From Paraburkholderia sp. PGU19 (GTDB taxonomy: Bacteria > Pseudomonadota > Gammaproteobacteria > Burkholderiales > Burkholderiaceae), in contig NZ_AP023182.1 of assembly GCF_013426915.1 (NCBI RefSeq), forward strand, positions 1,054,001-1,118,000: a DNA stretch of 64,000 nt, written 5' to 3'. The notes beneath the pieces were generated by a model. The model was given only the letters and a program-made list of their open reading frames with translations. It was not told where the DNA came from and did not search any database. Shown here in pieces: positions 1 to 14,030 of the stretch. Each line of letters begins with the position of its first letter. Positions within the stretch are counted from its first letter, which is position 1. The position numbers were made by a program, and so were the translations under genes.

Positions 1-1195
1 TCTGGTGAATCACACGGAGACCGATGAGCTGCTGAAGGTCCGTGTGATGAGCGCGAGCAAGCGCGAGGTCGCGCGGATGCTGAAGCGCCACAAGGGCGTC
101 GCGTGGGACCAGAGCCCGCTCTTCAAGCGCATCTACGAGGACGAGTACGGACAGCTGGGTGGCGAGCCGTTCGGCTGTCTCGTCGGCGACTACTACTTCG
201 ATCATTCGCCGCCGGACGTCGAGATGCTCGGCGAACTCTCGAAGATCGCAGCGGCCGCGCATGCACCGTTCATCGGCGGCGTGTCGCCTGCGCTGATGCA
301 GATGGAGTCGTGGCAGCAGCTGTCGGACCCGCGCGATCTCACGAAAATCTTCCAGAACACCGAATACGCCGCGTGGCGCGGCCTGCGCGATTCGGACGAT
401 GCGCGCTATGTCGGCCTTGCGATGCCGCGCTTTCTCGCGCGGCTGCCGTACGGCGCGCGCACCGATCCCGTCGACGAATTCGACTTCGAGGAGCAAACCG
501 ACGGCGCGCAACACGACCGCTATACGTGGGCGAACGCCGCGTATGCGATGGCGGCGAATATCAACCGCTCGTTCAAGCTCTATGGCTGGTGTTCGTCGAT
601 TCGCGGCGTCGAATCGGGCGGCACGGTCGAGAACCTGCCGTGCCACACGTTTCCGAGTGACGACGGCGGCGTCGACATGAAATGCCCGACTGAAATCGCG
701 ATCAGCGACCGGCGCGAAGCAGAACTTGCGAAGAACGGCCTGATGCCGCTCGTGCACAGAAAGAACTCGGATGTGGCCGCGTTCATCGGTGCGCAGTCGC
801 TGTTCAGAAGCGCCGAATATCACGATGCCGATGCGACGGCGAACGCGCGTCTGTCGGGGCGGCTGCCTTATCTCTTCGCGTGCTGCCGCTTCGCGCATTA
901 CCTCAAGTGCATCGTGCGCGACAAGATCGGGTCGTTCCATGAGCGTGACGACATGGAGCGATGGATGAACGACTGGATCATGAATTACGTCGACGGTGAT
1001 CCCGTCAATTCTTCGCAGGAGACCAAGGCGCGCAAGCCGCTGGCGGCGGCGCAGGTCGTCGTCGACGCAATCGCGGACAACCCCGGCTATTACGCAGCGA
1101 AGTTCTTTTTGCGTCCGCACTATCAGCTCGAAGGGTTGACGGTGTCGTTGCGGCTCGTCGCGAAGCTGCCGTCCGTCAAGACGGCGGACCGCTGA
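1..1195 (+). CDS. tssC: T6SS contractile sheath large subunit TssC (5' end missing)
   Basis: This is the large subunit of the contractile sheath, which pairs with TssB and drives the Hcp tube outward on contraction. The reading frame is already open at base 2 and runs 397 residues to the stop. TssC proteins are normally about 490-500 residues, so roughly the first 100 residues lie upstream of the window; the GTG at base 5 is not a true start. Typical TssC stretches are visible, such as NRSFKLYGWCSSIRGVESGG and a C-terminal KFFLRPHYQLEGL. It is followed without a gap by hcp, tssE, tssF and tssG on the same strand, so it belongs to one operon. Identity is firm. Confidence 0.95.
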   Translation, partial: LVNHTETDELLKVRVMSASKREVARMLKRHKGVAWDQSPLFKRIYEDEYGQLGGEPFGCLVGDYYFDHSPPDVEMLGELSKIAAAAHAPFIGGVSPALMQMESWQQLSDPRDLTKIFQNTEYAAWRGLRDSDDARYVGLAMPRFLARLPYGARTDPVDEFDFEEQTDGAQHDRYTWANAAYAMAANINRSFKLYGWCSSIRGVESGGTVENLPCHTFPSDDGGVDMKCPTEIAISDRREAELAKNGLMPLVHRKNSDVAAFIGAQSLFRSAEYHDADATANARLSGRLPYLFACCRFAHYLKCIVRDKIGSFHERDDMERWMNDWIMNYVDGDPVNSSQETKARKPLAAAQVVVDAIADNPGYYAAKFFLRPHYQLEGLTVSLRLVAKLPSVKTADR

Positions 1196-1227
1196 TGCAG
1201 CGCGATCAAATCAAACGGAGGGATGAC

Positions 1228-1719
1228 ATGGCAGTGGCAATGTTCATGAAGGTCGACGGCACGACGGGCGAATCGGCCGACGACCAGCATCAGGGTTGGA
1301 GCGACATCCAGTCGTTCTCGTGGGGCGCGAGCCAGCCCGCCGCGATGGCGGTGGGCGGCGGGGGCGGCACCGGCAAGGCGAGCTTCAGCGATCTCGTCGT
1401 GGTCGCGTACATGGACAAGGCGGCCCCCGCGATACTCAAGTGCTGCGCAAGCGGCAAGCATCTCGACAAGGTCGAGATCTCGTCGTGCAAGACGGGCGGC
1501 ACGCAGATCGAGTTCTCGCGCGTGACGCTCGAAGAAGTACTGGTCACGTCCGCGCAGGTTGCGGGCACCGATCCTGGCGACACGGCGGAGAGGCTGCTGA
1601 TGAACTACGCGTTCCAGGCGGCGCGTGTGAAGAAGCAGTACTGGGAGCAGAACGCCAACGGCGGCAAAGGCGCTGAGGTGACGATGGGCTGGGACGTCAA
1701 GAAGAACAAGGAAATGTAG
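1228..1719 (+). CDS. hcp: T6SS inner tube protein Hcp (TssD)
   Basis: Hcp forms hexameric rings that stack into the tube propelled by the T6SS sheath, and it can carry small effectors. The protein is 163 residues, the usual family length. It opens with MAVAMFMKVDGTTGES and contains the family SFSWGASQP motif near residue 32. I chose the ATG at 1228 over the in-frame ATG at 1195 because a strong ribosome site (CGGAGGGA, about 1216-1223) sits just before it, and the 1195 start would add 11 atypical residues overlapping the tssC stop. It lies 32 bases after tssC and 12 bases before tssE. Confidence 0.96.
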   Translation: MAVAMFMKVDGTTGESADDQHQGWSDIQSFSWGASQPAAMAVGGGGGTGKASFSDLVVVAYMDKAAPAILKCCASGKHLDKVEISSCKTGGTQIEFSRVTLEEVLVTSAQVAGTDPGDTAERLLMNYAFQAARVKKQYWEQNANGGKGAEVTMGWDVKKNKEM

Positions 1720-1731
1720 GGGGAACGCGCC

Positions 1732-2298
1732 ATGTTTAGCGAAACCGACGACGTACCGCCGGCACCCGCATACGGGCCGGGCCGGCGCGGCGCGCGCGAC
1801 CGGCTTCAGCCCGCGTTGCTCGACCGGCTCACCGACAACGCGCCGCACGAGCACGCGGAAGCCCTGCCCGCGCACTGGATCGACGAAAGGAGGCTGCGCG
1901 CGGCCGTGCTGCGCGATCTCGGCTGGCTCTTCAACAGCGCGAATGGGCTGGGCGAAATCGATGCCGCCGTGTATCGCGAGGCGGCCAGCTCGGTGACCAA
2001 CTACGGCATACCCTCGCTGGCGGGCACGCAGATGTCCGGCATCGATCTCGCCGGGCTCGAAGCGTCGATTCGCGAGGCGATGGTCCGCTTCGAGCCGCGC
2101 TTTTTGCCCGGCAGCATCGACGTGCGATGCGTCACCGACGCGCGCGCCCTGCATCACCAGAACCGGCTGACGCTCGAGATTCACGCGACACTCTGGTCGG
2201 TGCCTTATCCGCTGGAAATCCTGCTGCTGTCCGATCTCGATCTCGAATCGGGCGTCGTGTCGCTGCGCGAACGCACGGGGAGCGTGGCACATGGATGA
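1732..2298 (+). CDS. tssE: T6SS baseplate wedge protein TssE (gp25-like)
   Basis: TssE is a baseplate wedge component, homologous to T4 gp25/lysozyme-related proteins, that helps start sheath assembly. The 188-residue product has the gp25-like core from about residue 55 to 175, including VTNYGIPSLAG and the C-terminal ATLWSVPYPLEILLLSDLDL segment. The N-terminal 40 residues (rich in Pro and Arg) are variable in this family. AGGGGGA at about 1717 supplies the ribosome site. The last codons overlap the start of tssF by 8 bases, which suggests translational coupling inside the T6SS operon. Confidence 0.92.
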   Translation: MFSETDDVPPAPAYGPGRRGARDRLQPALLDRLTDNAPHEHAEALPAHWIDERRLRAAVLRDLGWLFNSANGLGEIDAAVYREAASSVTNYGIPSLAGTQMSGIDLAGLEASIREAMVRFEPRFLPGSIDVRCVTDARALHHQNRLTLEIHATLWSVPYPLEILLLSDLDLESGVVSLRERTGSVAHG

Positions 2299-4171
2299 GC
2301 GGTTTCTCGACTACTACAACCGCGAACTGAGCTACATGCGGCATCTCGGCGGCGAGTTCGCGCAGCAGTTTCCGAAGATCGCCGGAAGACTCGGCATGCA
2401 CGGCATCGACGTGGCCGACCCGTACGTCGAACGGCTGCTCGAAGGCTTCTGTTTTCTCACGGCGCGCGTGCAGATGAAGATGGACGCGGAGTTTCCACGC
2501 TTCTCGCAGCGCCTGCTCGAAGTGGTCTATCCGAACGCGCTCGCGCCGATACCGGCGATGGCGATCGTCCAGATGACACCCGAACTGAACGAAGGCAGCC
2601 TTGCACGCGGCTTTGCGATGCCGGCGGGCACGGCGTTGCAGGCGCGTGTGGCGAGCGGCGAGCTGACGCCTTGCGAATTCCGCACGGCTCACGATCTCGT
2701 GCTATGGCCGCTCGCGATACGCGCGGTCGAGATGACGGGCGTGCCTCTCGATCTGCCCGTGGATGCTTCATTGCGCACGCGCGCGAGCGCCGCGCTGCGC
2801 ATCCGGATCGACGTGACGGGCGGTGCGCGTGCGAACGAGTTGCCGCTCGACCGGCTGACGTTCCATCTGTCGGGAGCGGAGTCTCAGGCGGCGAGGCTGC
2901 TCGAACTGGTGACCTGTCATGTCGCGGGCGTGCTGGTTCATGCGCCGGGCGATCGCTCGCGCGCGGTCGTGCTCGACGCGGATGCCGTCGTCCATGAGGG
3001 CTTCGAGCCGTCGCAGGCGATGCTGCCGAACGACGGCCGGACCTTCGAGGGCTATCGGCTGTTGCAGGAATACTTTGTGTTTCCCGCGCGCTGCCTGTTC
3101 TTCAGTATCAGTGGGCTGCGGCGTGCGCTCGCGCAGTGTTGCGGAGATACATTCGAATTGACGCTGCTATTGGATCGCGACGATGCAGCGCTCGCCGCAC
3201 GGGTCGATACGCGCGATGTCGCGCTCCATTGCACCCCCGCGATCAATCTCTTTCCGAAGCGCACCGATCGCATTCCCGTCACTCCGCGTACCCATGAATA
3301 TCATCTCGTGGCCGACCGCTCGCGGCCGCTCGATCACGAAGTCTATGCCGTCACGCGCGTCAGCGGGCATCGAACGGGCGATGCGGGCGATTGCGAGTTC
3401 CATCCGTTCTATGCATCGTTCGCCCGTGGTGATGCCGATCGCGACCGCGATGACGGCGCCGCTTACTACTCGGTGCGGCGCGAGCCGCGTGTCGCGTCCG
3501 CGCAGATGCGGGCGAATGGCGCGCGCACGGGCTATCCGGGCACCGAGGTGTTCGTCTCGCTCGTCGATCGCAAGCATGCGCCGTTCGACGAGCGCGTGAG
3601 GCATCTGTCGGGCGATACGCTGTGCACGAACCGCGATTTGCCGTTGCTGCTGCCGCTTGGCGGCGCGAGCGATTTCACACCGAAAATTTCGGCGCCCATT
3701 GCACGCGTCAAGGTGCTGCGCGGTCCGTCGCGGCCACTGCCGCCGCTCGCGCAGGACGCTGCCGTGTGGCGGCTGATCAGCCATCTCGGGTTGAACTACC
3801 AGCCGCTCGCCCGCATCGACGACGAAGACGGTGCACGCGGACTGCGCGAACTGCTGGCGCTGTACGCGCAGCACGGCGACGCCGCCATGCGCAGGCAGGC
3901 GGAAGCAGTGCAGCGGCTTGCCTGCGAGCCCGTTTACCGGCGTCTGCCTGAACGCGGTCCGATCGTGTTCGGCCGCGGCGTGCGCGTGACGCTTACCGTC
4001 GACGATCAGGCGTTTGCGGGAGCAAGCCCTTATATGCTGGGTGCCGTACTCGAACAGTTCTTTGCGCGGCATGCGTCGATCAACGCCTTTACCGAGTTCG
4101 CGCTGCATTCGCCGCAGCGGGGCGAGCTTGCGCAATGGCCCGCGCGTGTCGGGCGAAGGCCGTCGATATGA
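2291..4171 (+). CDS. tssF: T6SS baseplate protein TssF
   Basis: TssF (VasA/ImpG family) is the large baseplate wedge protein that binds TssG and TssK. The product is 626 residues, the usual length. The N terminus MDERFLDYYNRELSYMRHL is diagnostic and is followed by the conserved EFAQQFPKIAGRL and FCFLTARVQMKMD stretches. It starts inside the last codons of tssE and its TGA overlaps the ATG of tssG, so the three genes are tightly coupled. No truncation or frameshift is seen. Confidence 0.96.
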   Translation: MDERFLDYYNRELSYMRHLGGEFAQQFPKIAGRLGMHGIDVADPYVERLLEGFCFLTARVQMKMDAEFPRFSQRLLEVVYPNALAPIPAMAIVQMTPELNEGSLARGFAMPAGTALQARVASGELTPCEFRTAHDLVLWPLAIRAVEMTGVPLDLPVDASLRTRASAALRIRIDVTGGARANELPLDRLTFHLSGAESQAARLLELVTCHVAGVLVHAPGDRSRAVVLDADAVVHEGFEPSQAMLPNDGRTFEGYRLLQEYFVFPARCLFFSISGLRRALAQCCGDTFELTLLLDRDDAALAARVDTRDVALHCTPAINLFPKRTDRIPVTPRTHEYHLVADRSRPLDHEVYAVTRVSGHRTGDAGDCEFHPFYASFARGDADRDRDDGAAYYSVRREPRVASAQMRANGARTGYPGTEVFVSLVDRKHAPFDERVRHLSGDTLCTNRDLPLLLPLGGASDFTPKISAPIARVKVLRGPSRPLPPLAQDAAVWRLISHLGLNYQPLARIDDEDGARGLRELLALYAQHGDAAMRRQAEAVQRLACEPVYRRLPERGPIVFGRGVRVTLTVDDQAFAGASPYMLGAVLEQFFARHASINAFTEFALHSPQRGELAQWPARVGRRPSI

Positions 4172-5244
4172 CACGCCGCGATCTGCCGTTGACCGCCAAC
4201 GTCCGATGGGACGCGTTCTGGAGCCGGCTGCGCGCCGCGCCCGAACAGCACGATCTGTTCGAGACCTTGCGCTGGGTCGATGCGCTGTCCGATGCCGTCG
4301 CGCTCGGACGCGCCGCGCATCCGGGCGACGAACCGTTGCGGCTCGGGGAGGAGCCTTCGCTGGCGTTTGCGGCATCGATGCTGGCCGCCGTGCGCGATGA
4401 AGACGCGTTGCCGCGCGTGACCGTCAACGGGTTTGGGCTGTTCGGACCGAACGGGCCGCTGCCGCATCATCTGACGGAATACACGCATGAGCGCGTCAAT
4501 GCGCACGGCGATCGTTCGATGAGCGCATTCGCGGACTGGTTTCATCATCGGCTGATCCTGCTGTTCTATCGCGCATGGGCCGACGCGCAGCCCGTCGTCG
4601 GTCATGACCGTTCCGGTGTCTCGCGCTTCGACGGCTACGTCGCGAGCCTGATCGGGCGCGCAAATGGCCAACCCGGCGCGCCGGGCACGCGCGGTCCGGC
4701 TCATGCGCAATGTTTTCACGCGGGGCATTGGGTCCGGCAGACGCGCAACCCGGAAGGTCTCGTGCAGTTCCTGCGGCGCGAGTTCGGCGCGCCCGCACGC
4801 ATCGTCGAGCATGTGGTGCATTGGATGCCGATCGATGCGCCCTTGCGCACCACGCTGCACGGCGCGCGTCCGACGCAGCGGCTCGGTGAGAGCGCAATGC
4901 TGGGCCGCGCGGTTCGCGACGGGCAGTCGCGCTTTCGCATCGTGCTCGGTCCGATGCTGCTCGAAACCTATCGCACGCTCCTGCCGGGGGGAACGAATGC
5001 GCCGCGCGTCGCGCGCTGGGTGCGCGAGTACGTCGGTAGTGAGTTCGCGTGGGAGTTGCGGCTGGAGCTTGCCGCCACGCAGGTGCCTGCGTTGAGACTC
5101 GGCGCTCGCGAGGGAATCGGCCGAAGCACGTGGCTGGGCGTGCGGCGCGATTGCGCGCCCGCGAACGATGTCGTGATCGACCACGACGTCGTCGAGCGTG
5201 CACAGCGCGAAGCGACGCGTCCGGCGGCCGACGCGCGGATCTGA
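4168..5244 (+). CDS. tssG: T6SS baseplate protein TssG
   Basis: TssG (VasB/ImpH family) sits with TssF in the baseplate wedge. The conserved N-terminal region (DLFETLRWVDAL) and the FGLFGPNGPLPHHLTEYTHE motif identify it. I place the start at the ATG at 4168, which overlaps the tssF stop in an ATGA arrangement, giving 358 residues. An in-frame ATG at 4135 would add 11 residues inside tssF and has no ribosome site of its own. tssH (ClpV) does not follow; vgrG does, so the rest of the T6SS genes must lie upstream of the window or elsewhere. Confidence 0.94.
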   Translation: MTRRDLPLTANVRWDAFWSRLRAAPEQHDLFETLRWVDALSDAVALGRAAHPGDEPLRLGEEPSLAFAASMLAAVRDEDALPRVTVNGFGLFGPNGPLPHHLTEYTHERVNAHGDRSMSAFADWFHHRLILLFYRAWADAQPVVGHDRSGVSRFDGYVASLIGRANGQPGAPGTRGPAHAQCFHAGHWVRQTRNPEGLVQFLRREFGAPARIVEHVVHWMPIDAPLRTTLHGARPTQRLGESAMLGRAVRDGQSRFRIVLGPMLLETYRTLLPGGTNAPRVARWVREYVGSEFAWELRLELAATQVPALRLGAREGIGRSTWLGVRRDCAPANDVVIDHDVVERAQREATRPAADARI

Positions 5245-5259: not shown

Positions 5260-7467
5260 GTGTCACGCATATTCACACTGGACAGCCCGCTCGGCGACAG
5301 CCTGAAGTTTCGTCGCCTGAGCGGCGACGAGGAACTCGGCCGGATGTTCGAGTTTCGCATCGAGGCGCTGGCCGACAGTCACAGCCTGTCGCTGCACGCA
5401 TTGCTCGGGCAGTCCGTTACCGTGCGCATCGAGCAGCAGGGGAGCGCGACCCGCTATCTGAACGGTCTCGTCGCGCGCGCCGCATTGGCGGGGCGCGATG
5501 CCGAACGCCACTACTGTTATGAACTCGTGGTGCGGCCGTGGCTCTGGCTGGCGACGCGCCGCGCCGATTGCCGGATCTTCCAGATGCGCAGCGTGCCGGA
5601 GATCGTGCAGGAAACGCTGGCGCCTTACGGGTTTCAGATCGAGAGCCGGCTGAGCGATCAGTACGCGCCGCGCGAGTATTGCGTCCAGTACAACGAAACC
5701 GATGCGGATTTCGTGTCGCGGCTGATCGAGCAGGAAGGCATCTACTACTACTTCGAGCATGCGTCCGGCAAGCACACGCTGGTGCTGTGCGACGCGATGG
5801 CTTCACATCGCGCGTTGCCCGGCTACGCGACGATTCCTTATGTTGGACAGGACCGCGCAGCCATCGCGGACGAGGAGCATATCGACAGCTGGGTGCCCGC
5901 GAAGGAAGTCAATCCGGGCCGGCACGAAGCGGGCGACTACGATTTCACGAAGCCGCGCGCCGATCTTTCCGTGCGTCGCGCCGATCCTCGCGGGCACGAT
6001 CATGACAGCCTCGCTGTCTACGAATGGCCGGGCGGCTATCGCGACGACGCGCATGGCGAGCGCTGCAACCGTGTGAGGCTCGAAGAGCTGCAGGCGGAGC
6101 ACGAGCGCGCGGCAGGTCACACCGATGTGCGCGGCGCCGCGCCGGGCTACCTGTTCACGCTGAAGCACTGCCCGCGCGAGGACCAGAATCGCGAATATCT
6201 GATCGTGCGTTGCTGGTATCGCTTCGAAGAGAATGCCTATGCGAGCCACGACGGCGACGAAGTGCGGCACGACACGCAACTCGTCGCACAGCCCGCGAGC
6301 CTGCCGTACCGCTCGCGGCGCACGACGCCATGCCCGCGCACGAGCGGTCCGCAAACCGCCGTCGTCACGGGACCGCAGGGCGAGGAAATCTGGACTGATC
6401 AGTACGGGCGCGTGAAGCTCCAGTTCCATTGGGACCGCTATGGGCATGGCGACGAAAACACTTCTTGCTGGGTGCGTGTCTCGTCGCCCTGGGCGGGCGG
6501 CGGCTTCGGCGGCGTGCAGGTGCCGCGCGTCGGCGACGAAGTGATCGTCGATTTTCTCAATGGTGATCCGGATTACCCCATCGTCACCGGCCGCGTCTAC
6601 AACGCCGACCGGATGCCGCCGTGGGCGCTTCCCGTGAGCGCGACGCAAAGCGGCATCCTGTCGCGCTCGACGCCAGGCGGTTCGAGTGCGCATGCGAACG
6701 CGCTGCGCTTCGAAGACCGCAAAGGCGCCGAGCAGTTCTGGATGCATGCGGAGCGCAATCTCGACATCGAAGCCGAACAGGACCATACGGCATTGATCGG
6801 CAGGGACCGCACGCAGACCATCGGGCGCAACGAGACCGTCAACGTGCAGAACGATCGCGCGAAGCAGATCGGCAGCAATGAGACGGTCAGCGTCGGGCAG
6901 CATCGGACAGCGCAGGTCGGCGGGAACGAGAGCCTTGCCGTCGGAGGCGACCGCTCGTCGGAGGTCGCGCAGAACGAGACGGTTTCCGTCGGCGCGAACC
7001 GCTTCGTCAGCGTTGCAGGCAACCACACGGAAACAGTGGCTGTCGCGAAGGCTGAAACGATCGGTGCGGGCAAGGCGCTGACGATCGGCGGTCTATATCA
7101 GACGACCGTCGCGGGCGCGATGAACACGTCGGTCGGACTTGCGCATGTCGATGAAGTCGGCCTTGTGCGCACGACGGTGATTGGGCTCGATCACAACATG
7201 AGCGTCGGCGGCTCGCAATCGTTCAGTGTGGCGAACGACCACGCCGTTCAGGCGGACGGGCAAGTCCAGATCGTCGCGGGACAGCAGCTCAGCCTCGTGT
7301 GCGGCAAGTCGAGCATCACGATGGACAGCGCCGGCAACGTCACGATCCAGGGCGTGGACGTGAAAGCCGTCGGTTCGTCGAGCCATAGCATCGTGGCGTC
7401 CACCGTCAGTTCGTCGGCGAGCGGCGAGCATACGATCGAAGGCGCGCTGCTCAAGCTGAACCCATAG
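5260..7467 (+). CDS. vgrG: T6SS spike protein VgrG (TssI)
   Basis: VgrG trimers form the puncturing spike at the tip of the Hcp tube and carry effectors. The 735-residue product has a gp27-like N-terminal module (residues about 1-350), the gp5 OB module with GEEIWTDQYGRVKLQFHWDR around residue 376, and a beta-helix with repeated heptad-like units such as IGRNETVNV, IGSNETVSV and VAQNETVSV (residues about 500-640). The start is GTG at 5260 with AGGGGAG 7 bases upstream. No extra C-terminal enzymatic domain is present, so it is a structural VgrG whose cargo is probably the downstream Rhs protein. Confidence 0.96.
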   Translation: MSRIFTLDSPLGDSLKFRRLSGDEELGRMFEFRIEALADSHSLSLHALLGQSVTVRIEQQGSATRYLNGLVARAALAGRDAERHYCYELVVRPWLWLATRRADCRIFQMRSVPEIVQETLAPYGFQIESRLSDQYAPREYCVQYNETDADFVSRLIEQEGIYYYFEHASGKHTLVLCDAMASHRALPGYATIPYVGQDRAAIADEEHIDSWVPAKEVNPGRHEAGDYDFTKPRADLSVRRADPRGHDHDSLAVYEWPGGYRDDAHGERCNRVRLEELQAEHERAAGHTDVRGAAPGYLFTLKHCPREDQNREYLIVRCWYRFEENAYASHDGDEVRHDTQLVAQPASLPYRSRRTTPCPRTSGPQTAVVTGPQGEEIWTDQYGRVKLQFHWDRYGHGDENTSCWVRVSSPWAGGGFGGVQVPRVGDEVIVDFLNGDPDYPIVTGRVYNADRMPPWALPVSATQSGILSRSTPGGSSAHANALRFEDRKGAEQFWMHAERNLDIEAEQDHTALIGRDRTQTIGRNETVNVQNDRAKQIGSNETVSVGQHRTAQVGGNESLAVGGDRSSEVAQNETVSVGANRFVSVAGNHTETVAVAKAETIGAGKALTIGGLYQTTVAGAMNTSVGLAHVDEVGLVRTTVIGLDHNMSVGGSQSFSVANDHAVQADGQVQIVAGQQLSLVCGKSSITMDSAGNVTIQGVDVKAVGSSSHSIVASTVSSSASGEHTIEGALLKLNP

Positions 7468-7477
7468 CGAGCGAGGC

Positions 7478-8767
7478 ATGGACAACTGGCAACCGGACAA
7501 TCCCGTCGAACGACGCCTGATGCTCGCGCATGAGGACTGGCTGTGTTTCGCGCGCGCCCGCGATGCGCGCGTCATGATCTGGCAAACGGACGAGACCGAT
7601 GCGCAGATCGTCCAGCTCTATTTTCAGGGGCAGCAGGACGTCGGCTGTTGTGTGTTCGACATGCACGATTCCTTCGTCGATGGAAGCCAGTATTCGCGCA
7701 TGCTCAGTCAAGAAGTGATCCGCTTCTATGACGCGCGGCGCGAAGCGTCCGCTGCGCAAGGCATGCGAGCCGACTGGCAAGCGCCGCGAGAAGATGCATC
7801 GTTTGCGGCGGGCCAGGCGCGAGACGCGGCGACGGGTTATCTGCTCGCGGTGCTCGGCAGCCTGATGGACCATCATCCGGATGTATTTCCGGGCATCGTG
7901 CTGGTCCTTCAGCCTGACGAAGTGAGCGACCATGCCGCACTGGAGCACTGGCTGGAACATCTGCTGCAGGCGCTGAACCGGTTGCCCGCGCTGAGCGGAC
8001 GCTTGCGTATCGTGCTGCCTGCAATCGATCCGGAGCCGTTTGCGCGGCTCGCCGCACGCCGGCCGGCCGCCGTCCGGATCATCCACGGCCGATATGCGAT
8101 GCAAGGGCTTGGGCGAGAACTGCTCGCGCAGTCGGGCGAGCGCGGTTCGAGCGGCGGGTTCCGGCGTCTGTTCGTCGAACTGACCGAGGCCGTCGGTCAT
8201 GGTGATCCGGCGAAGCTCGAATTGTTGCGCGCGGCGGCATTGCAGATCGCGCAGGCCGAGCGCTGGCCTGATCAGGTTGTTGTCGTGCATCTGCTGGCGG
8301 CATCCGCGCATCTGAAGCGGCATGATTTCGACGGCGCGCTGGCGGCCTATCGCGAGGCGGGCGCGGCGGCCTCGCAGGCGGTCGCGCAAAACCATCCCGC
8401 GGGCCATAAGCTCGCCGTCAACGCGCTGTTCGGCGAGGCAAGCGTGCATCTGATGAGGCACGCGCACCCTTATGCCGCCCAGTGTTATGAACGCGCCGCT
8501 GCCGCGGCGGCGGCGGCGCGTGATCCCGTTCTCGGCGTCGAGGCGTGGCGAATGAGCGCGCTGTGCTGGCATCGTTCTGGTGAGCGCGACCACGCGCTGG
8601 AGGCGGGATTCCACGCGCTGGATGCCGGGCTCGGCATCGAAGCGTCGCAACGCGCGAACAGCAATCTTCGGCTCGCGGCCGAGTGGATGATCCAGCACAC
8701 AGGCGCATCCGGCAGACAGCGACGCGAACTCGACGAGCGGTTCGACGTGCTTTTTTCCGACGGCTGA
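7478..8767 (+). CDS. Uncharacterised protein between vgrG and rhs, possible T6SS effector adaptor
   Basis: I do not recognise the family of this 429-residue protein. It starts 10 bases after vgrG and ends just before the Rhs start, so it is almost certainly co-transcribed. It has no signal peptide or membrane segment. The C-terminal part (residues about 240-405) is helical and Ala-rich, with TPR-like repeats, for example AHLKRHDFDGALAAYREAGA and HPYAAQCYERAAAAAAAARD. The N-terminal part has alternating hydrophobic segments with GCCVFDMHDSF. Proteins placed between vgrG and an effector commonly act as loading chaperones or adaptors, so that role is inferred from position only. It is too long for a DUF1795 (Eag) chaperone. 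Confidence 0.75.
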   Translation: MDNWQPDNPVERRLMLAHEDWLCFARARDARVMIWQTDETDAQIVQLYFQGQQDVGCCVFDMHDSFVDGSQYSRMLSQEVIRFYDARREASAAQGMRADWQAPREDASFAAGQARDAATGYLLAVLGSLMDHHPDVFPGIVLVLQPDEVSDHAALEHWLEHLLQALNRLPALSGRLRIVLPAIDPEPFARLAARRPAAVRIIHGRYAMQGLGRELLAQSGERGSSGGFRRLFVELTEAVGHGDPAKLELLRAAALQIAQAERWPDQVVVVHLLAASAHLKRHDFDGALAAYREAGAAASQAVAQNHPAGHKLAVNALFGEASVHLMRHAHPYAAQCYERAAAAAAAARDPVLGVEAWRMSALCWHRSGERDHALEAGFHALDAGLGIEASQRANSNLRLAAEWMIQHTGASGRQRRELDERFDVLFSDG

Positions 8768-8793: not shown

Positions 8794-11700
8794 ATGGCAT
8801 TGCCCGCAGTCAGGCACCTCGATCCCGTTATCGGCGTGGACGTGCACAGTGTCGTGATCGCGCCCGAGCCTGTGCCTGTGCCGCTGCCTCATCCGCATGT
8901 CGGCTTCGTGCTCGATCTGCGCGAATACGTGAACGCGGCGCTCGGTGTGATCGGCAGCATTGTGTTCACGTTTGTCGAAGAACGGGTGACCGACTACCTC
9001 GAAGATCATCCCGATACGGCTCGGCAACTCACCGATACGCTCGATCATGCGGGCAAGGAACTCGCGAGCGTGCAACAGAAGCTCATGAGCAACTCGCTGA
9101 TTGCGGGCGCCGCCGCACTCGATGAAAAAGAAGGCGCAGTGGCTAACGCATTAGGCGCAGGCGTCGGCATGGGCAGCACGAGGGGGCGTCCGATTTTCGT
9201 GAACGGCCTGCTGCGCGCAACGGCAGGCACGCACACGTTTCATGTGCCCGGCTTGCACTTTCCCCTAGGCGAGGCCTTCGGAGCACCCGATCCGAAACCG
9301 TCCAACGACGCGGAATCCTACATGGGCAGCCGGACCGTGGTGGCCAACAACGACCCGATGTCGTTCATGGCCTTGCCGGCGATGAGCTGCTGGAGTGTTG
9401 GGCTCGAGCCGCCCGCGCACAACGGCGCCCATACGACGCGCACTCACCTGTCAATGCCGACATCGGTGATGCTGCCGATCCCTGCCGGGCGGCCCGTACT
9501 GGTGGGCGGCCCGCCCGTCATGAACATGTTTGCGTTCGGCTCGGCGCTGTTCAGGGCGTTCCGCGGCTCCGCTTTCGCCCGCAAGCTCGCGGACAAACTG
9601 CATCTGAAGTCCGGGTTTTTGCGTTGCAAGGTGCTGGAGGCCGAGCCCGTGGACGTGACCACGGGCGAGGTCATCGTTCAGCAGCAAGACTTCACTGTGT
9701 ATGGCCGACTGCCGTTAGTCTGGGCTCGCTGTTACGCGAGCCGTTGCACGTATGCCGGTTCGTTCGGCACCGGCTGGCAGACACCCGCCGATATACGGCT
9801 CGAACTGATGCGCCATGAGGAAGCAGTGGGCGCGGCTGCCTACTTTCCCGATCATGCGACGGCATTCGATACGCTGCCCGACGGCATCGGCTGGGATAGT
9901 CGTGTGTATGACTGGCAAAACGGCTACGCGCTGTACCGTCTCGAGAATCGCCTGGTGTTGCGCACGCGCAAGGGCATCGAATACGGATTTGCGTTGCCTG
10001 AATCATGCCAACGTACTGTCGACTTGCGCAATTGCGTCGAGCCGCTGGAACTCCTGATCGACCGCATGGCGGATCTCTATGGCAATGCATGGGTGTTCGA
10101 GCGGCAGCCCGACAGGACGCTGACACGTGTCGTCGAATGGAAACGCGACGTCGTTACGAAACGCGTGATTGAGTGCGGCACCGGGCGCGGGCCGCGCGCC
10201 GGGTTGCGGAAAGCGCTGAACCTGATCGATGCGGACGGCCGCGCGCATTCTCTTGTCAGCTACGAACTCAGCCCGGAGCGCAACCTGACTGCAGTTAGCG
10301 ACGCAAACGCACAGCCGTATTGCTTCGAGTACGCCAACGGGCACTTGATGGTGCGCCATACGAGCCCGCGCGGCGATTCGTTCTACTATCACCATCAGTA
10401 TGATAACGGCGTGTGGCAGGTCGATCGCGCATGGGGCGACAACGGCGTGCTCGACTACAGGTTCGCTTACGATCGCGCGCGTCGGGAGGTGCGGATCACC
10501 GATTCGCTCGCGCATATGACGGTCATGCAACTCAACGAACGCGACATGCCAGTGGCGCGGATCGATCCGCTTGGCGGCGTGTCGGGCTACAGCTACGACG
10601 CGTGGGGGCACACGAGTTCCGAAATCGACCCGACAGGCCGCATTACGCGGTGGCAGTACGACGCCTGCGGCAATCTGCTCGCGCAGACGCTGCCCGATGG
10701 CAGCCGGGTGCAGCTCGAATACGATGGCGAACAGAGACCCGTCTGCATGACGGTGCCGGGTGGCCGGCAGTGGCGACTCGAATGGAATGCGCAAGTCAGG
10801 CTGCTCGGGCAGACGAGCCCTGCACAGGCGACCTCGCACTATGCGTATGACGCACATGGACAGTTGATCTCGCACACGGGACCTCGTGGGGCCGTGACGC
10901 GCTTCGACTACGATTGCGACGGCAACCTCGAACGGGTCACGGATGCGCTGAATCATCGCCATCAGTACGTGCATGATGCGCGCGGCAATCTGATTCAGGC
11001 CATCGATCCTCTCGGTCAGACGAGCTGCTACGAGTACGACCACAACCTCAGGCTGACGCGGGCGATCGAACCGGATGGGCGTGAGGTTCATTGCGGCTAT
11101 GACGCGGACGGCAATCTGATTCGATATCGTGATCCGGCCGGCAACGTGACGCAGATGGAATATACGTCGCCAGGGCAGATTTGCAGGCTTCTGACGCCCG
11201 ATGGCAATGTCGTCGAATACAGATACGACACAGAAGCGCAGCTGGTTGGCGTAATCAATGAGTGCGGTCAGCTCTATGAGTTGAGACGCGATGCCCTGGG
11301 GCGAATTGTCGAGGAGATCGATTACTGGGGCCAACCTCGGCGCTACGATTATGGAGCGGCAGGCGAACTGCTGTGCAGTAGCGATGCTTTGGGGCAGACG
11401 ATCCGATACGTCTACGACGCGCTGGGACGTCTTGTGCGAAAGAACGTGCCGGACGCGCAGCAGCCAGGCGGAATACGCGTCGACGCATTGACTTACGATC
11501 GCAGTGGCAACCTGATCCGGGCGGAGAATCCGGACAGCGTGGTCGAAATGCGCTACGACGCGGAAGGACGGATTGTCGAAGAAAAGCAGGGTGACGCGTT
11601 CACGATTTTCAGTAGCTACGACGCAACCGGCAATCGCACCGAGCGCAGAACCCGGCTCCTTGCTGGAGGTGAAACTGTCGAACACACGGTTCGCTATTCG

Positions 11701-13329
11701 TATGATTCGCGCGATGACGTGAAGTCGATTCAAATCGACGACGCCGCACCCGTGGTTTTCGAGCGTGATCCGCTCCGGCAAGTCCGCGTGGAATATATTG
11801 GCGCGGAGTTGCGGCATGAGATTTCATACACAACGGGTGGTCAGCTTGCCACACAGACGTTGCTGTCAGGCACCGGCGCGCTCTTTGCGCACGAGTACAC
11901 ATACGATCCGAACGGTGAACTGTCAGGCAAGCGCGATCTGCGTGGAAACATCGAGCGATTCCAGTACGACCCGGTGGGACGTTTGACCGCTCATCTCGAC
12001 CCGACCGACACGCTGCACCCATTTTTGCGTAGCCCGGCGGGCGATCTGCTGCGCACGCGTATTCGTGAGCGCGGTGCCGCGAATACGTGGCACCGCGACG
12101 GAGAATACGACGGCTGCTTCTACGCGTTTGATCGCGCTGGCAACATGGTTCGCAAGCAGGACGCCGAACAGGACCTGACGCTACGATGGGACGGCGCCGG
12201 CCAGCTGGCCGACGTGCAGGTGATCCGGCCCGCTACGGACGGCACAGCCGGCGGCGTTGTCCGCGTTCAGACGCACTATGCATACGATGCCTTCAACCGG
12301 CGGGTACGCAAGACGGTGCATGCCGGGCACGGCACGAACCCGTTCGCGAGTGGGCATGCCGATTCTTCATTCTCACTGTCGCACGCGAGTCGCTTCTTCT
12401 GGGACGGCGATACGCTCGTGGGCGAATCTACGACGGACCATGACGGACGACATGCGCCGCAGCCTTCATTGTCGGGTCGAGCCTGGGCGGGCGCGGGTCC
12501 TGGATCGCGCGTTTGTCACGCGCGTGAATGGGTCTATTATCCGGGCACGCTCCGGCCGCTCGCGGCAATGTATTGCGATCTTTCGGCGGAACCGACAGAG
12601 ATGCAGGCGGCACGCGGCTTAGGGAAAGGAGTGGCTGCCGTATATTTTTTCCAGACCGATCCGAATGGCGCGCCGGTACGCATGCACGATCGGGATGGAA
12701 ACATCGCATGGGCAGCGCGCTTTGGTGCAACGGGCTGTGTCGATAGTATCGAAGTCGAGCGGGTGCAGCAGCCGATCAGGCTACAGGGTCAGTACTTCGA
12801 CCATGAGTCGAACCTGCACTACAACCGGCATCGGTATTTCGATCCGTCAATTGGACAGTTCATTAGTGAAGATCCACTTGGCCTGGTAGGCGGACTGAAT
12901 CCATTCAGCTATGGGCCTAATGTCCTTGCGTGGATAGACCCGTTGGGGCTGGAATCTCTCTTGCGATTCGCAAACAGATTGCGATCTGCAGGGAAGACGA
13001 GTGGTGCCGTATCGTTTCTGTCGATTGGAACGACGACTTTTAAAGGTGTGAGCGGGAACGTGCGTCCGGCGGACTATCATCCGCAACTAAGGCGCGTACT
13101 CGACGAAATAAAGCATTCGCACGTGGTTGAAGATTGGCACGGATACTGTGCCGAAGTCGATGCGATCAACAAGGCGTTGAAGGCCGGCTATTCGTTGAAC
13201 GGAGCGACGATAAAGACGCTCAACGTGACGGTCGACAAGAGACATGGCAAGGTCAAGGCCGTATGCAAAACATGTGAACCGTTGACTGAATTTTTTGGAA
13301 TTATCCCGGAATATCCCCCTGTGGAATAA
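8794..13329 (+). CDS. Rhs polymorphic effector with C-terminal deaminase-like toxin
   Basis: A 1511-residue Rhs effector, probably delivered on VgrG. The start at 8794 (ATGGCATTGCCC) follows GGGGAG. The N-terminal about 290 residues look like a T6SS-associated PAAR-type/prefix region, followed by VDVTTGEVIVQQQDF, the usual entry into the Rhs cage. Many YD repeats follow (for example YDACGNLLAQ, YDADGNLIRY). The shell ends with HRYFDPSIGQFISEDPLGL and then IDPLGL at residues 1380-1386, the self-cleavage boundary. The last 125 residues are the toxin: C1452-A-E1454 and C1491-x-x-C1494 match the zinc-ligand pattern of the cytidine deaminase-like fold (YwqJ-like or a related toxin family). AT content rises over the toxin, as expected for a swapped tip. 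The exact substrate (DNA, RNA or nucleotide) cannot be read from sequence. Confidence 0.93.
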   Translation: MALPAVRHLDPVIGVDVHSVVIAPEPVPVPLPHPHVGFVLDLREYVNAALGVIGSIVFTFVEERVTDYLEDHPDTARQLTDTLDHAGKELASVQQKLMSNSLIAGAAALDEKEGAVANALGAGVGMGSTRGRPIFVNGLLRATAGTHTFHVPGLHFPLGEAFGAPDPKPSNDAESYMGSRTVVANNDPMSFMALPAMSCWSVGLEPPAHNGAHTTRTHLSMPTSVMLPIPAGRPVLVGGPPVMNMFAFGSALFRAFRGSAFARKLADKLHLKSGFLRCKVLEAEPVDVTTGEVIVQQQDFTVYGRLPLVWARCYASRCTYAGSFGTGWQTPADIRLELMRHEEAVGAAAYFPDHATAFDTLPDGIGWDSRVYDWQNGYALYRLENRLVLRTRKGIEYGFALPESCQRTVDLRNCVEPLELLIDRMADLYGNAWVFERQPDRTLTRVVEWKRDVVTKRVIECGTGRGPRAGLRKALNLIDADGRAHSLVSYELSPERNLTAVSDANAQPYCFEYANGHLMVRHTSPRGDSFYYHHQYDNGVWQVDRAWGDNGVLDYRFAYDRARREVRITDSLAHMTVMQLNERDMPVARIDPLGGVSGYSYDAWGHTSSEIDPTGRITRWQYDACGNLLAQTLPDGSRVQLEYDGEQRPVCMTVPGGRQWRLEWNAQVRLLGQTSPAQATSHYAYDAHGQLISHTGPRGAVTRFDYDCDGNLERVTDALNHRHQYVHDARGNLIQAIDPLGQTSCYEYDHNLRLTRAIEPDGREVHCGYDADGNLIRYRDPAGNVTQMEYTSPGQICRLLTPDGNVVEYRYDTEAQLVGVINECGQLYELRRDALGRIVEEIDYWGQPRRYDYGAAGELLCSSDALGQTIRYVYDALGRLVRKNVPDAQQPGGIRVDALTYDRSGNLIRAENPDSVVEMRYDAEGRIVEEKQGDAFTIFSSYDATGNRTERRTRLLAGGETVEHTVRYSYDSRDDVKSIQIDDAAPVVFERDPLRQVRVEYIGAELRHEISYTTGGQLATQTLLSGTGALFAHEYTYDPNGELSGKRDLRGNIERFQYDPVGRLTAHLDPTDTLHPFLRSPAGDLLRTRIRERGAANTWHRDGEYDGCFYAFDRAGNMVRKQDAEQDLTLRWDGAGQLADVQVIRPATDGTAGGVVRVQTHYAYDAFNRRVRKTVHAGHGTNPFASGHADSSFSLSHASRFFWDGDTLVGESTTDHDGRHAPQPSLSGRAWAGAGPGSRVCHAREWVYYPGTLRPLAAMYCDLSAEPTEMQAARGLGKGVAAVYFFQTDPNGAPVRMHDRDGNIAWAARFGATGCVDSIEVERVQQPIRLQGQYFDHESNLHYNRHRYFDPSIGQFISEDPLGLVGGLNPFSYGPNVLAWIDPLGLESLLRFANRLRSAGKTSGAVSFLSIGTTTFKGVSGNVRPADYHPQLRRVLDEIKHSHVVEDWHGYCAEVDAINKALKAGYSLNGATIKTLNVTVDKRHGKVKAVCKTCEPLTEFFGIIPEYPPVE

Positions 13330-13330
13330 C

Positions 13331-13786
13331 ATGAAACCCGACACCCGGCTGGACGTTGCCTTGCGAAATGTCGTCAACGAACATGTCGACAACAATAGCG
13401 AGTATTTTTATCAGCAAGTCATGATTTGCATGGTAAAGCTGTCCGCACTGTTCATCGATTCTGCGGGTCCTGCCGTGAAGGAAGCGGCTTCCGTTGCCGA
13501 AGCGTTCTGGTCAGAATTTGTGCCGTTCGAGAACTTCCCTACATCGGCAATCAACGTGGAGTATGCATCGATGTCGAGGTTTATCGACGCAGGCGGACCT
13601 AGGGATGAGCATCTGCACGCACGTGCCGTTCGACTCATGTTGAGGAAATACGATGTCGACCATCTCGACTCGAACATCGACGTGTTTCCATTGTTCGTCG
13701 ATTACCTGATCAAAATGGGTTGCAGTCGGGAAGCGATCACAGACACCATTGAACGGTGCTTTTTCGGGCATCAGGAGAAGTGGTAA
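13331..13786 (+). CDS. Probable immunity protein for the Rhs toxin
   Basis: A 151-residue acidic protein starting one base after the Rhs stop codon. It has no signal peptide or membrane segment, so it would act in the cytoplasm, as expected for a protein neutralising a nucleic-acid deaminase. The sequence is not one I recognise. It is rich in Asp, Glu and Phe (for example FWSEFVPFENFPTS), a composition often seen in nucleic-acid-mimicking immunity proteins. Codon use is more AT-rich than in the Rhs core, matching the toxin tip. The function is inferred from its position and spacing. Confidence 0.8.
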   Translation: MKPDTRLDVALRNVVNEHVDNNSEYFYQQVMICMVKLSALFIDSAGPAVKEAASVAEAFWSEFVPFENFPTSAINVEYASMSRFIDAGGPRDEHLHARAVRLMLRKYDVDHLDSNIDVFPLFVDYLIKMGCSREAITDTIERCFFGHQEKW

Positions 13787-13873: not shown

Positions 13874-14030
13874 GTCTACCGTTAGCGTGCGCCACGGGAT
13901 CGCGAGCAGCTTGCCGCCGATACCGAGAAAGCCGCTGCTTGCCAGCACCGCGTACGCTATACGGCCGGAGCGCACGTCGAGCACGATCTCCTTGATCATG
14001 CCGACGACGTCGCCGTCCGCGCTCTTGAAT
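13874..14030 (-). pseudogene. PRC-barrel domain protein remnant
   Basis: On the minus strand the frame reads KSADGDVVGMIKEIVLDV, then RSGRIAYAVLASSGFLGIGG and KLLAIPWRTLTVD. This is the typical core of a bacterial PRC-barrel protein of the photosynthetic-reaction-centre H-subunit type. The beginning of the gene (before KSADG) is missing. After TLTVD the frame no longer matches the family, and a better continuation appears in another frame, so it is truncated and frameshifted. It lies immediately downstream of the T6SS island and marks the point where gene decay begins. Confidence 0.7.

Follow-up and report, generated by a model that had tools for sequence, protein, structure and literature searches.

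A predicted YwqJ-like deaminase tip and a candidate immunity protein at a type VI secretion-linked Rhs locus of Paraburkholderia sp. PGU19

A stretch of 64,000 nucleotides from Paraburkholderia sp. PGU19 (contig NZ_AP023182.1, positions 1,054,001 to 1,118,000; hereafter the window, in whose own numbering features are given) carries an Rhs gene whose last 125 codons, together with the small gene that follows, raise the question of which kind of toxin this tip is, what it would attack and what would protect the producing cell. The Rhs gene (8794..13329, + strand, stop included) encodes a 1511 amino acid (aa) protein that displays RHS repeats (PF05593, E 6.7e-62), DUF6531, PF03527 and a TIGR03696 match, while the longest alternative reading of its open reading frame (ORF), from a GTG at 8683, gives 1548 aa. 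The cleavage motif DPLG-(18)-DPLGL (residues 1360–1386; 12871..12951, +) was found as a match, DPLGLVGGLNPFSYGPNVLAWIDPLGL, to a pattern built from the motif described in PMC6833914. RHS repeats, an Rhs-associated core and DPxG-(18)-DPxGL ahead of a variable tip are thus all present, as in polymorphic Rhs effectors of the type VI secretion system (T6SS). The stretch DPLGLVGGLNPFSYGPNVLAWIDPLGL ends at residue 1386 and the 125 aa tip (residues 1387–1511; 12952..13326, +) begins directly after it; the ATG of the following ORF, which encodes an acidic, predicted all-helical protein of 151 aa (13331..13786, +, stop included), stands one base after the TAA of the Rhs gene. We consider it likely that the locus encodes a T6SS-delivered polymorphic Rhs toxin with a YwqJ-like deaminase tip and a 151 aa antidote, secretion and activity both being predicted.

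The PF14431 profile (YwqJ-like deaminase) matches the tip alone with 29.3 bits (E 1.1e-6), above its curated cut-off of 25.9, and the tip is the single PF14431 match when the PGU19 genome is searched (27.8 bits). The tip carries [HC]xE and then CxxC in order, as C1452-A1453-E1454 (13147..13155, +), which would provide one zinc ligand and the catalytic glutamate, and as C1491-x-x-C1494 (CKTC; 13264..13275, +), which would provide the other two zinc ligands. Taken by itself this pair of motifs is suggestive, since shuffling the tip 100,000 times produced the loose pattern [HC]xE-15..60-CxxC in 424 cases and the strict [HC]AE form in 34; it is homology that settles membership. Of 3466 candidates in a profile search with the tip, 72 proteins reached E <= 0.01, the search being restricted to proteins of 0.55–1.75 times the query length, which shut out full-length Rhs proteins. 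Among the 52 rows of one alignment (A4: 48 of the 72 relatives, three loci and the window; 24 short or weak relatives left out) the CAE motif is invariant (52/52), and the two cysteines of CxxC are found in 47 of 48 and 47 of 49 of the rows with a letter at these positions. CAE and both cysteines occur together in 45 of the 52 rows, the other seven being gapped at one or both cysteines (four) or substituted (three). A second, mostly tip-only alignment (A9, 24 rows: the window, 20 of the 72 relatives and three loci) replaced A4 in the profile search of the PDB, in which A4 had returned Rhs cores best, as many of its rows include Rhs residues that precede the tip; of the 24 members of A9, PF14431 picks up 23 and PF00383 picks up 22 at E <= 0.01, and the window tip is found by PF14431 only. 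Within NCBIfam the tip gave one weak non-deaminase row, under its cut-off, and none at E <= 0.01. These comparisons support the assignment of the tip to the named family PF14431.

A zinc-dependent deaminase fold is likewise supported by the AlphaFold2 model of the tip, which is confident (predicted local distance difference test, pLDDT, 91.4) and whose closest structural matches are blasticidin S deaminase (PDB 2z3g) and cytidine deaminase (PDB 3b8f), at 14–15% identity. In the model, C71 (C1452 of the full-length protein) lies just ahead of helix 72–82 while C113 (C1494) starts helix 113–120, which are presumably the sites of zinc ligands in known deaminases. The original prediction, made from the letters of the window, had named the Rhs effector, the cleavage motif and the CAE and CxxC positions, all of which hold to the residue; it had also read the zinc-ligand pattern as that of the deaminase superfamily, and both the conservation of the motifs in A4 and the modelled fold bear this out. 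Its view that the sequence fits no named family has to be given up, as the tip passes the PF14431 cut-off and Rhs proteins with YwqJ-deaminase tips are already published: such proteins are listed in Acinetobacter and named Tme22 in PMC6833914 (see also PMC6838775). Tme22 of Acinetobacter baumannii shares with the window protein the Rhs core, the DPxG cleavage motif and the PF14431 tip (PMC6833914). The A. baumannii record that we retrieved (L020; 44.5% identity over query residues 1–122, CAE and CxxC kept) appears to be Tme22 itself; unlike the window, it has a downstream protein of 143 aa with no detectable relation to the 151 aa one, sitting behind a transposase gene. This transposase gene (L020 3430–4362, −) overlaps the end of the A. 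baumannii Rhs gene and parts it from the likely immunity gene.

What would such a tip deaminate? The YwqJ family spans T6SS/Rhs proteins, LXG toxins and, by its YwqJ-like tips, Tc toxins (PMC10847046, PMC7861908), yet the literature searched, for the most part papers that need no subscription, states no substrate for toxins of this type. The reading that survives best, although we hold it at somewhat less than even chances, is that the tip has free nucleosides or nucleotides as its substrate and would kill by draining or corrupting the pool rather than by mutating DNA. The two enzymes closest to the model in structure act on free nucleosides; they differ from the tip in being free-standing small-molecule enzymes and are not known as tips of secreted toxins. 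Likeness of fold shows no substrate, however, the tip is basic (isoelectric point, pI, 9.1), and in both PMC3482391 and PMC6833914 nucleic acids are taken to be the target of toxin deaminases. Bacillus subtilis was the only one of 14 control genomes in which PF14431 found a match. Its YwqJ resembles the window tip as a toxic member of the family with a paired antitoxin gene, ywqK; induction of YwqJ affected neither the chromosome nor rRNA, and it is described as a protein that 'may act on small molecules' (PMC8321402). It is unlike the window tip in that its delivery is of the LXG type, as opposed to Rhs/T6SS, and in that YwqK does not adjoin the window tip.

The original prediction favoured a base-editing activity. 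A DNA-editing toxin like DddA or SsdA would deaminate a DNA base, kill at high dose and mutate the survivors, and this we regard as possible but unlikely for the tip. DddA (PF14428) and SsdA (PF14432) are deaminases of the same superfamily, also delivered by the T6SS, and edit DNA (PMC9990079; PMC7901873), so that two other families of T6SS-delivered deaminase toxins are DNA editors; the deaminase fold of the tip, its basic character and the PPR-DYW, TadA and TadA-derived editor rows among its structural matches are consistent with the same activity. They are of other families, however, and neither the DddA-like PF14428 nor the DYW PF14432 model matches the tip at E <= 1; moreover the best structural rows are the free-nucleoside enzymes, and induction of B. 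subtilis YwqJ was without effect on the chromosome, although deamination might escape an assay of this kind. Editing of RNA, for instance of tRNA or rRNA bases, is doubtful to a similar degree: the tRNA deaminases TadA and ADAT2 are among the structural matches, PPR-DYW RNA editors are among the Foldseek rows and the tip is basic, but these tRNA deaminases and editors rank under the free-nucleoside enzymes and the B. subtilis protein left rRNA unaffected. A substrate of some other kind seems improbable. Altogether, small nucleosides are as credible substrates as DNA or RNA.

Concerning protection of the producer, the 151 aa protein (alternative longest reading from a TTG at 13295) is probably the cognate immunity protein, given its position and its apparent linkage to a related tip in P. 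azotifigens. It is encoded by a small gene directly after the toxin, one base past the stop codon, and has a pI of 5.0 as compared to 9.1 for the tip. A search of 5.8 billion proteins returned three proteins: itself, P0002 of P. azotifigens (119/151 identical) and P0003 of a metagenome (85/150). A tip from P. azotifigens (P0006) is identical to that of the window at 117 of 125 positions (95% in BLASTP over a longer query), with 99 of 107 in the preceding Rhs part. Since P0002 and P0006 are both filed under P. azotifigens and each lists a contig of 49,391 bases, the two are very probably neighbours. ORFs of similar size follow other tips, with 143–148 aa in Acinetobacter and 134–140 aa in Burkholderia/Pseudomonas.

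The 151 aa protein gave one Pfam row (E 0.23, far under its cut-off), no NCBIfam model and no PDB relative. No immunity family matched it in Pfam (E <= 1) or NCBIfam, nor did any match P0002 and P0003 in Pfam (E <= 10); Imm6, which PMC3482391 lists for YwqJ deaminases, was found with none of the three in the Pfam scans. It is thus likely an unfamiliar immunity protein that matches no described immunity family. We think it improbable that the 151 aa gene is instead an unrelated or remnant neighbour and that protection comes from elsewhere. The missing family match, the two relatives only and a cut PRC-barrel fragment just beyond, by which the 3′ flank looks scrambled, would suit such a neighbour; but the one-base spacing, the low GC (guanine plus cytosine) content common to tip and gene, the pairing of an acidic with a basic protein, the frame kept in both relatives and the seeming link to a P. 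azotifigens tip of 95% identity argue against it.

Several results weigh against the reading of the locus as a YwqJ-like deaminase toxin with its antidote. On the full-length protein PF14431 scores 24.1 bits, under the 25.9 cut-off, and its match to the tip spans profile positions 41–135 of 138 only. A single-sequence search of the PDB with the tip gave three matches, at chance level, and Foldseek of the tip model against the PDB found no match at E 0.001, the best being 6.8e-3. For the 151 aa protein, the AlphaFold2 model (three sequences; seven helices) is poor, with a pLDDT of 63 that makes the best Foldseek match (E 0.82) meaningless, and when profiles of the proteins encoded downstream of the three groups of tips were compared, no relation was detected (probabilities 0.4, 0.2 and 0.1%), with two or three sequences per profile. 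A common family of the window and Acinetobacter downstream proteins, which an FW motif and a C-terminal helix suggest by eye, is not claimed, as this comparison finds no relation.

We also followed base composition along the locus. The part of the Rhs gene ahead of the tip has a GC content of 61.2%, against 51.8% for the tip and 51.2% for the downstream gene, and none of the 126 sliding windows of 390 bases in the Rhs core is as low as the tip. The comparison of AT content put forward in the original prediction therefore places tip and downstream gene some 10 GC points below the Rhs core, and the toxin-immunity layout that it had proposed gains support from this foreign composition and from the one-base spacing; the small acidic protein that it had not recognised stays without a family in profile searches. 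Orthologous loci were reached through the 429 aa ORF that precedes the Rhs gene (7478..8767, +), whose homologues occur at six other places in five other genomes among 144 of the genus; five of the six places were fetched, one of them (G118) being cut off by the end of its contig, and in all five an Rhs core gene comes after the homologue. This ORF worked better as a query than the C-terminal 300 residues of the Rhs core, which at E <= 1e-60 returned only the own protein in 58 genomes of the genus; within the PGU19 genome, no second copy of the Rhs core was found at E <= 1e-10. The four complete orthologous loci (three genomes) have cores 57.6, 44.3, 44.2 and 39.8% identical to that of the window, and the window tip found no match at E <= 1e-5 at the fetched loci, these four included, whose tips also differ from one another by eye.

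The low GC of tip and downstream gene and the other tips at orthologous loci are commonly seen where a cassette has been swapped, and we regard the two as a polymorphic-toxin cassette. Acinetobacter higginsii and Acinetobacter gyllenbergii carry the tip at the end of a short Rhs ORF (380 and 227 aa), after which come a candidate immunity ORF and at least one further short Rhs ORF with another tip, while P0006 of P. azotifigens is a 233 aa ORF of the same make; therefore tips of this group seem to travel as tip-plus-immunity cassettes. Such short ORFs show that displaced tips occur, but a decayed or inactive cassette is very improbable in the window, where a full-length Rhs protein runs in frame into the tip, the cleavage motif is intact and none of the four active-site residues is missing. 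Past the downstream gene, a PRC-barrel fragment (PF05239, profile positions 25–63 of 78; about 13874–13999, −) is truncated at both ends and could be the trace of a recombination event at the cassette's 3′ end.

The Rhs locus closes a T6SS gene cluster. The genes tssC, hcp, tssE, tssF and tssG (5..5244, +; assigned with Pfam) open the window, the cluster itself starting upstream of it: an 18.6 kb segment (L027) reaching 600 bases into the window holds tssJ, tssK, tssL with an OmpA domain, tssM, a TagF_N gene, a protein kinase gene, tssA (ImpA_N) and tssB. The VgrG (TssI) spike protein is encoded two genes upstream of the Rhs gene and in the same direction (5260..7467, +; PF05954 E 2.7e-107, TIGR03361 E 8.1e-189), so that the Rhs gene is linked to both T6SS and vgrG genes, as in T6SS Rhs effectors. 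The 429 aa ORF between the two, in which TPR_2 scores 15.8 bits, below its cut-off of 27, may encode an unnamed T6SS loading adaptor or chaperone for Rhs effectors. The protein kinase gene (PF00069; L027 13919–15979, +) lies between the TagF_N gene and tssA and hints at phospho-control of firing.

In the mechanism that we propose, which draws its first step from what is known of the family, the Rhs shell would sit on VgrG, perhaps aided by the 429 aa companion, enclose the tip and cut itself at DPLGL; the T6SS would then inject the toxin into a neighbouring bacterium. There, the tip would act as a zinc-dependent YwqJ-like deaminase on a nucleobase of the victim, with fold and zinc pattern predicted, the metal being held by C1452, C1491 and C1494 and E1454 shuttling the proton. 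The acidic helical 151 aa protein, made right after Rhs, would bind the basic tip and so protect the producer and its kin. The predicted toxin is of an ordinary kind, paired with an unfamiliar likely immunity protein. It is conceivable, if rather unlikely, that the pair combines a YwqJ-family toxin that deaminates a free nucleoside or nucleotide with an undescribed immunity family, in which case it would be, in the searched literature, the family's first member whose substrate is known. The pair is small, with a confidently modelled tip and an unfamiliar likely antidote, and is therefore a fair choice for settling the function of the family and for seeking new deaminase activities.

Both genes of the pair are rare. 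The tip and the downstream gene were each found in one of 144 genomes of the genus and in one of 369 genomes of the class (for the tip, by a profile search at E <= 1e-5), in every case the own genome. Plasmid records held no downstream gene, while six of them had a tip match at E <= 1, the best in A. baumannii (44.5% over 94% of the query) and Burkholderia stagnalis (29.5% over 89%). Species genomes gave five tip loci, in A. higginsii and A. gyllenbergii (45%), B. stagnalis (30%), P. crudilactis (27%) and, as a short match, in a Rhodobacteraceae metagenome-assembled genome. The 61 pattern matches on viral contigs yielded none that was confirmed. A search of the 5.8 billion proteins with the tip taken as part of the full-length protein brought up 396 candidates, none at E <= 1, but the own protein was missed as well, so this is no fair test of absence. 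The tree of 57 rows joins the window tip to that of P. azotifigens (100/99) within a set of 11 rows (98/87) that includes the Acinetobacter tips and metagenome rows, while five Burkholderiaceae HxE rows stand apart on long branches, where their placement is unsure. One relative, P0005 of A. baumannii (11 member sequences), has a tyrosine in place of the last zinc cysteine of most others, and natural altered variants may thus exist.

Across the taxonomic family, PF14431 matches 17 of 349 genomes at E <= 0.01 and 8 of 349 over its cut-off, the own genome included. ORFs were read at ten of the 17 places (L004–L012 and L015, the last on the wrong strand) in addition to the own one, which leaves six. 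Among the six HxE-type YwqJ tips that were read, three (L005 and L006, HSE; L010, HTE) precede ORFs that we take to be YwqK-like, YwqK itself being presumably a MORN-like protein, while CAE-type tips precede other proteins; the motif type of a YwqJ tip and the type of its immunity protein may go together.

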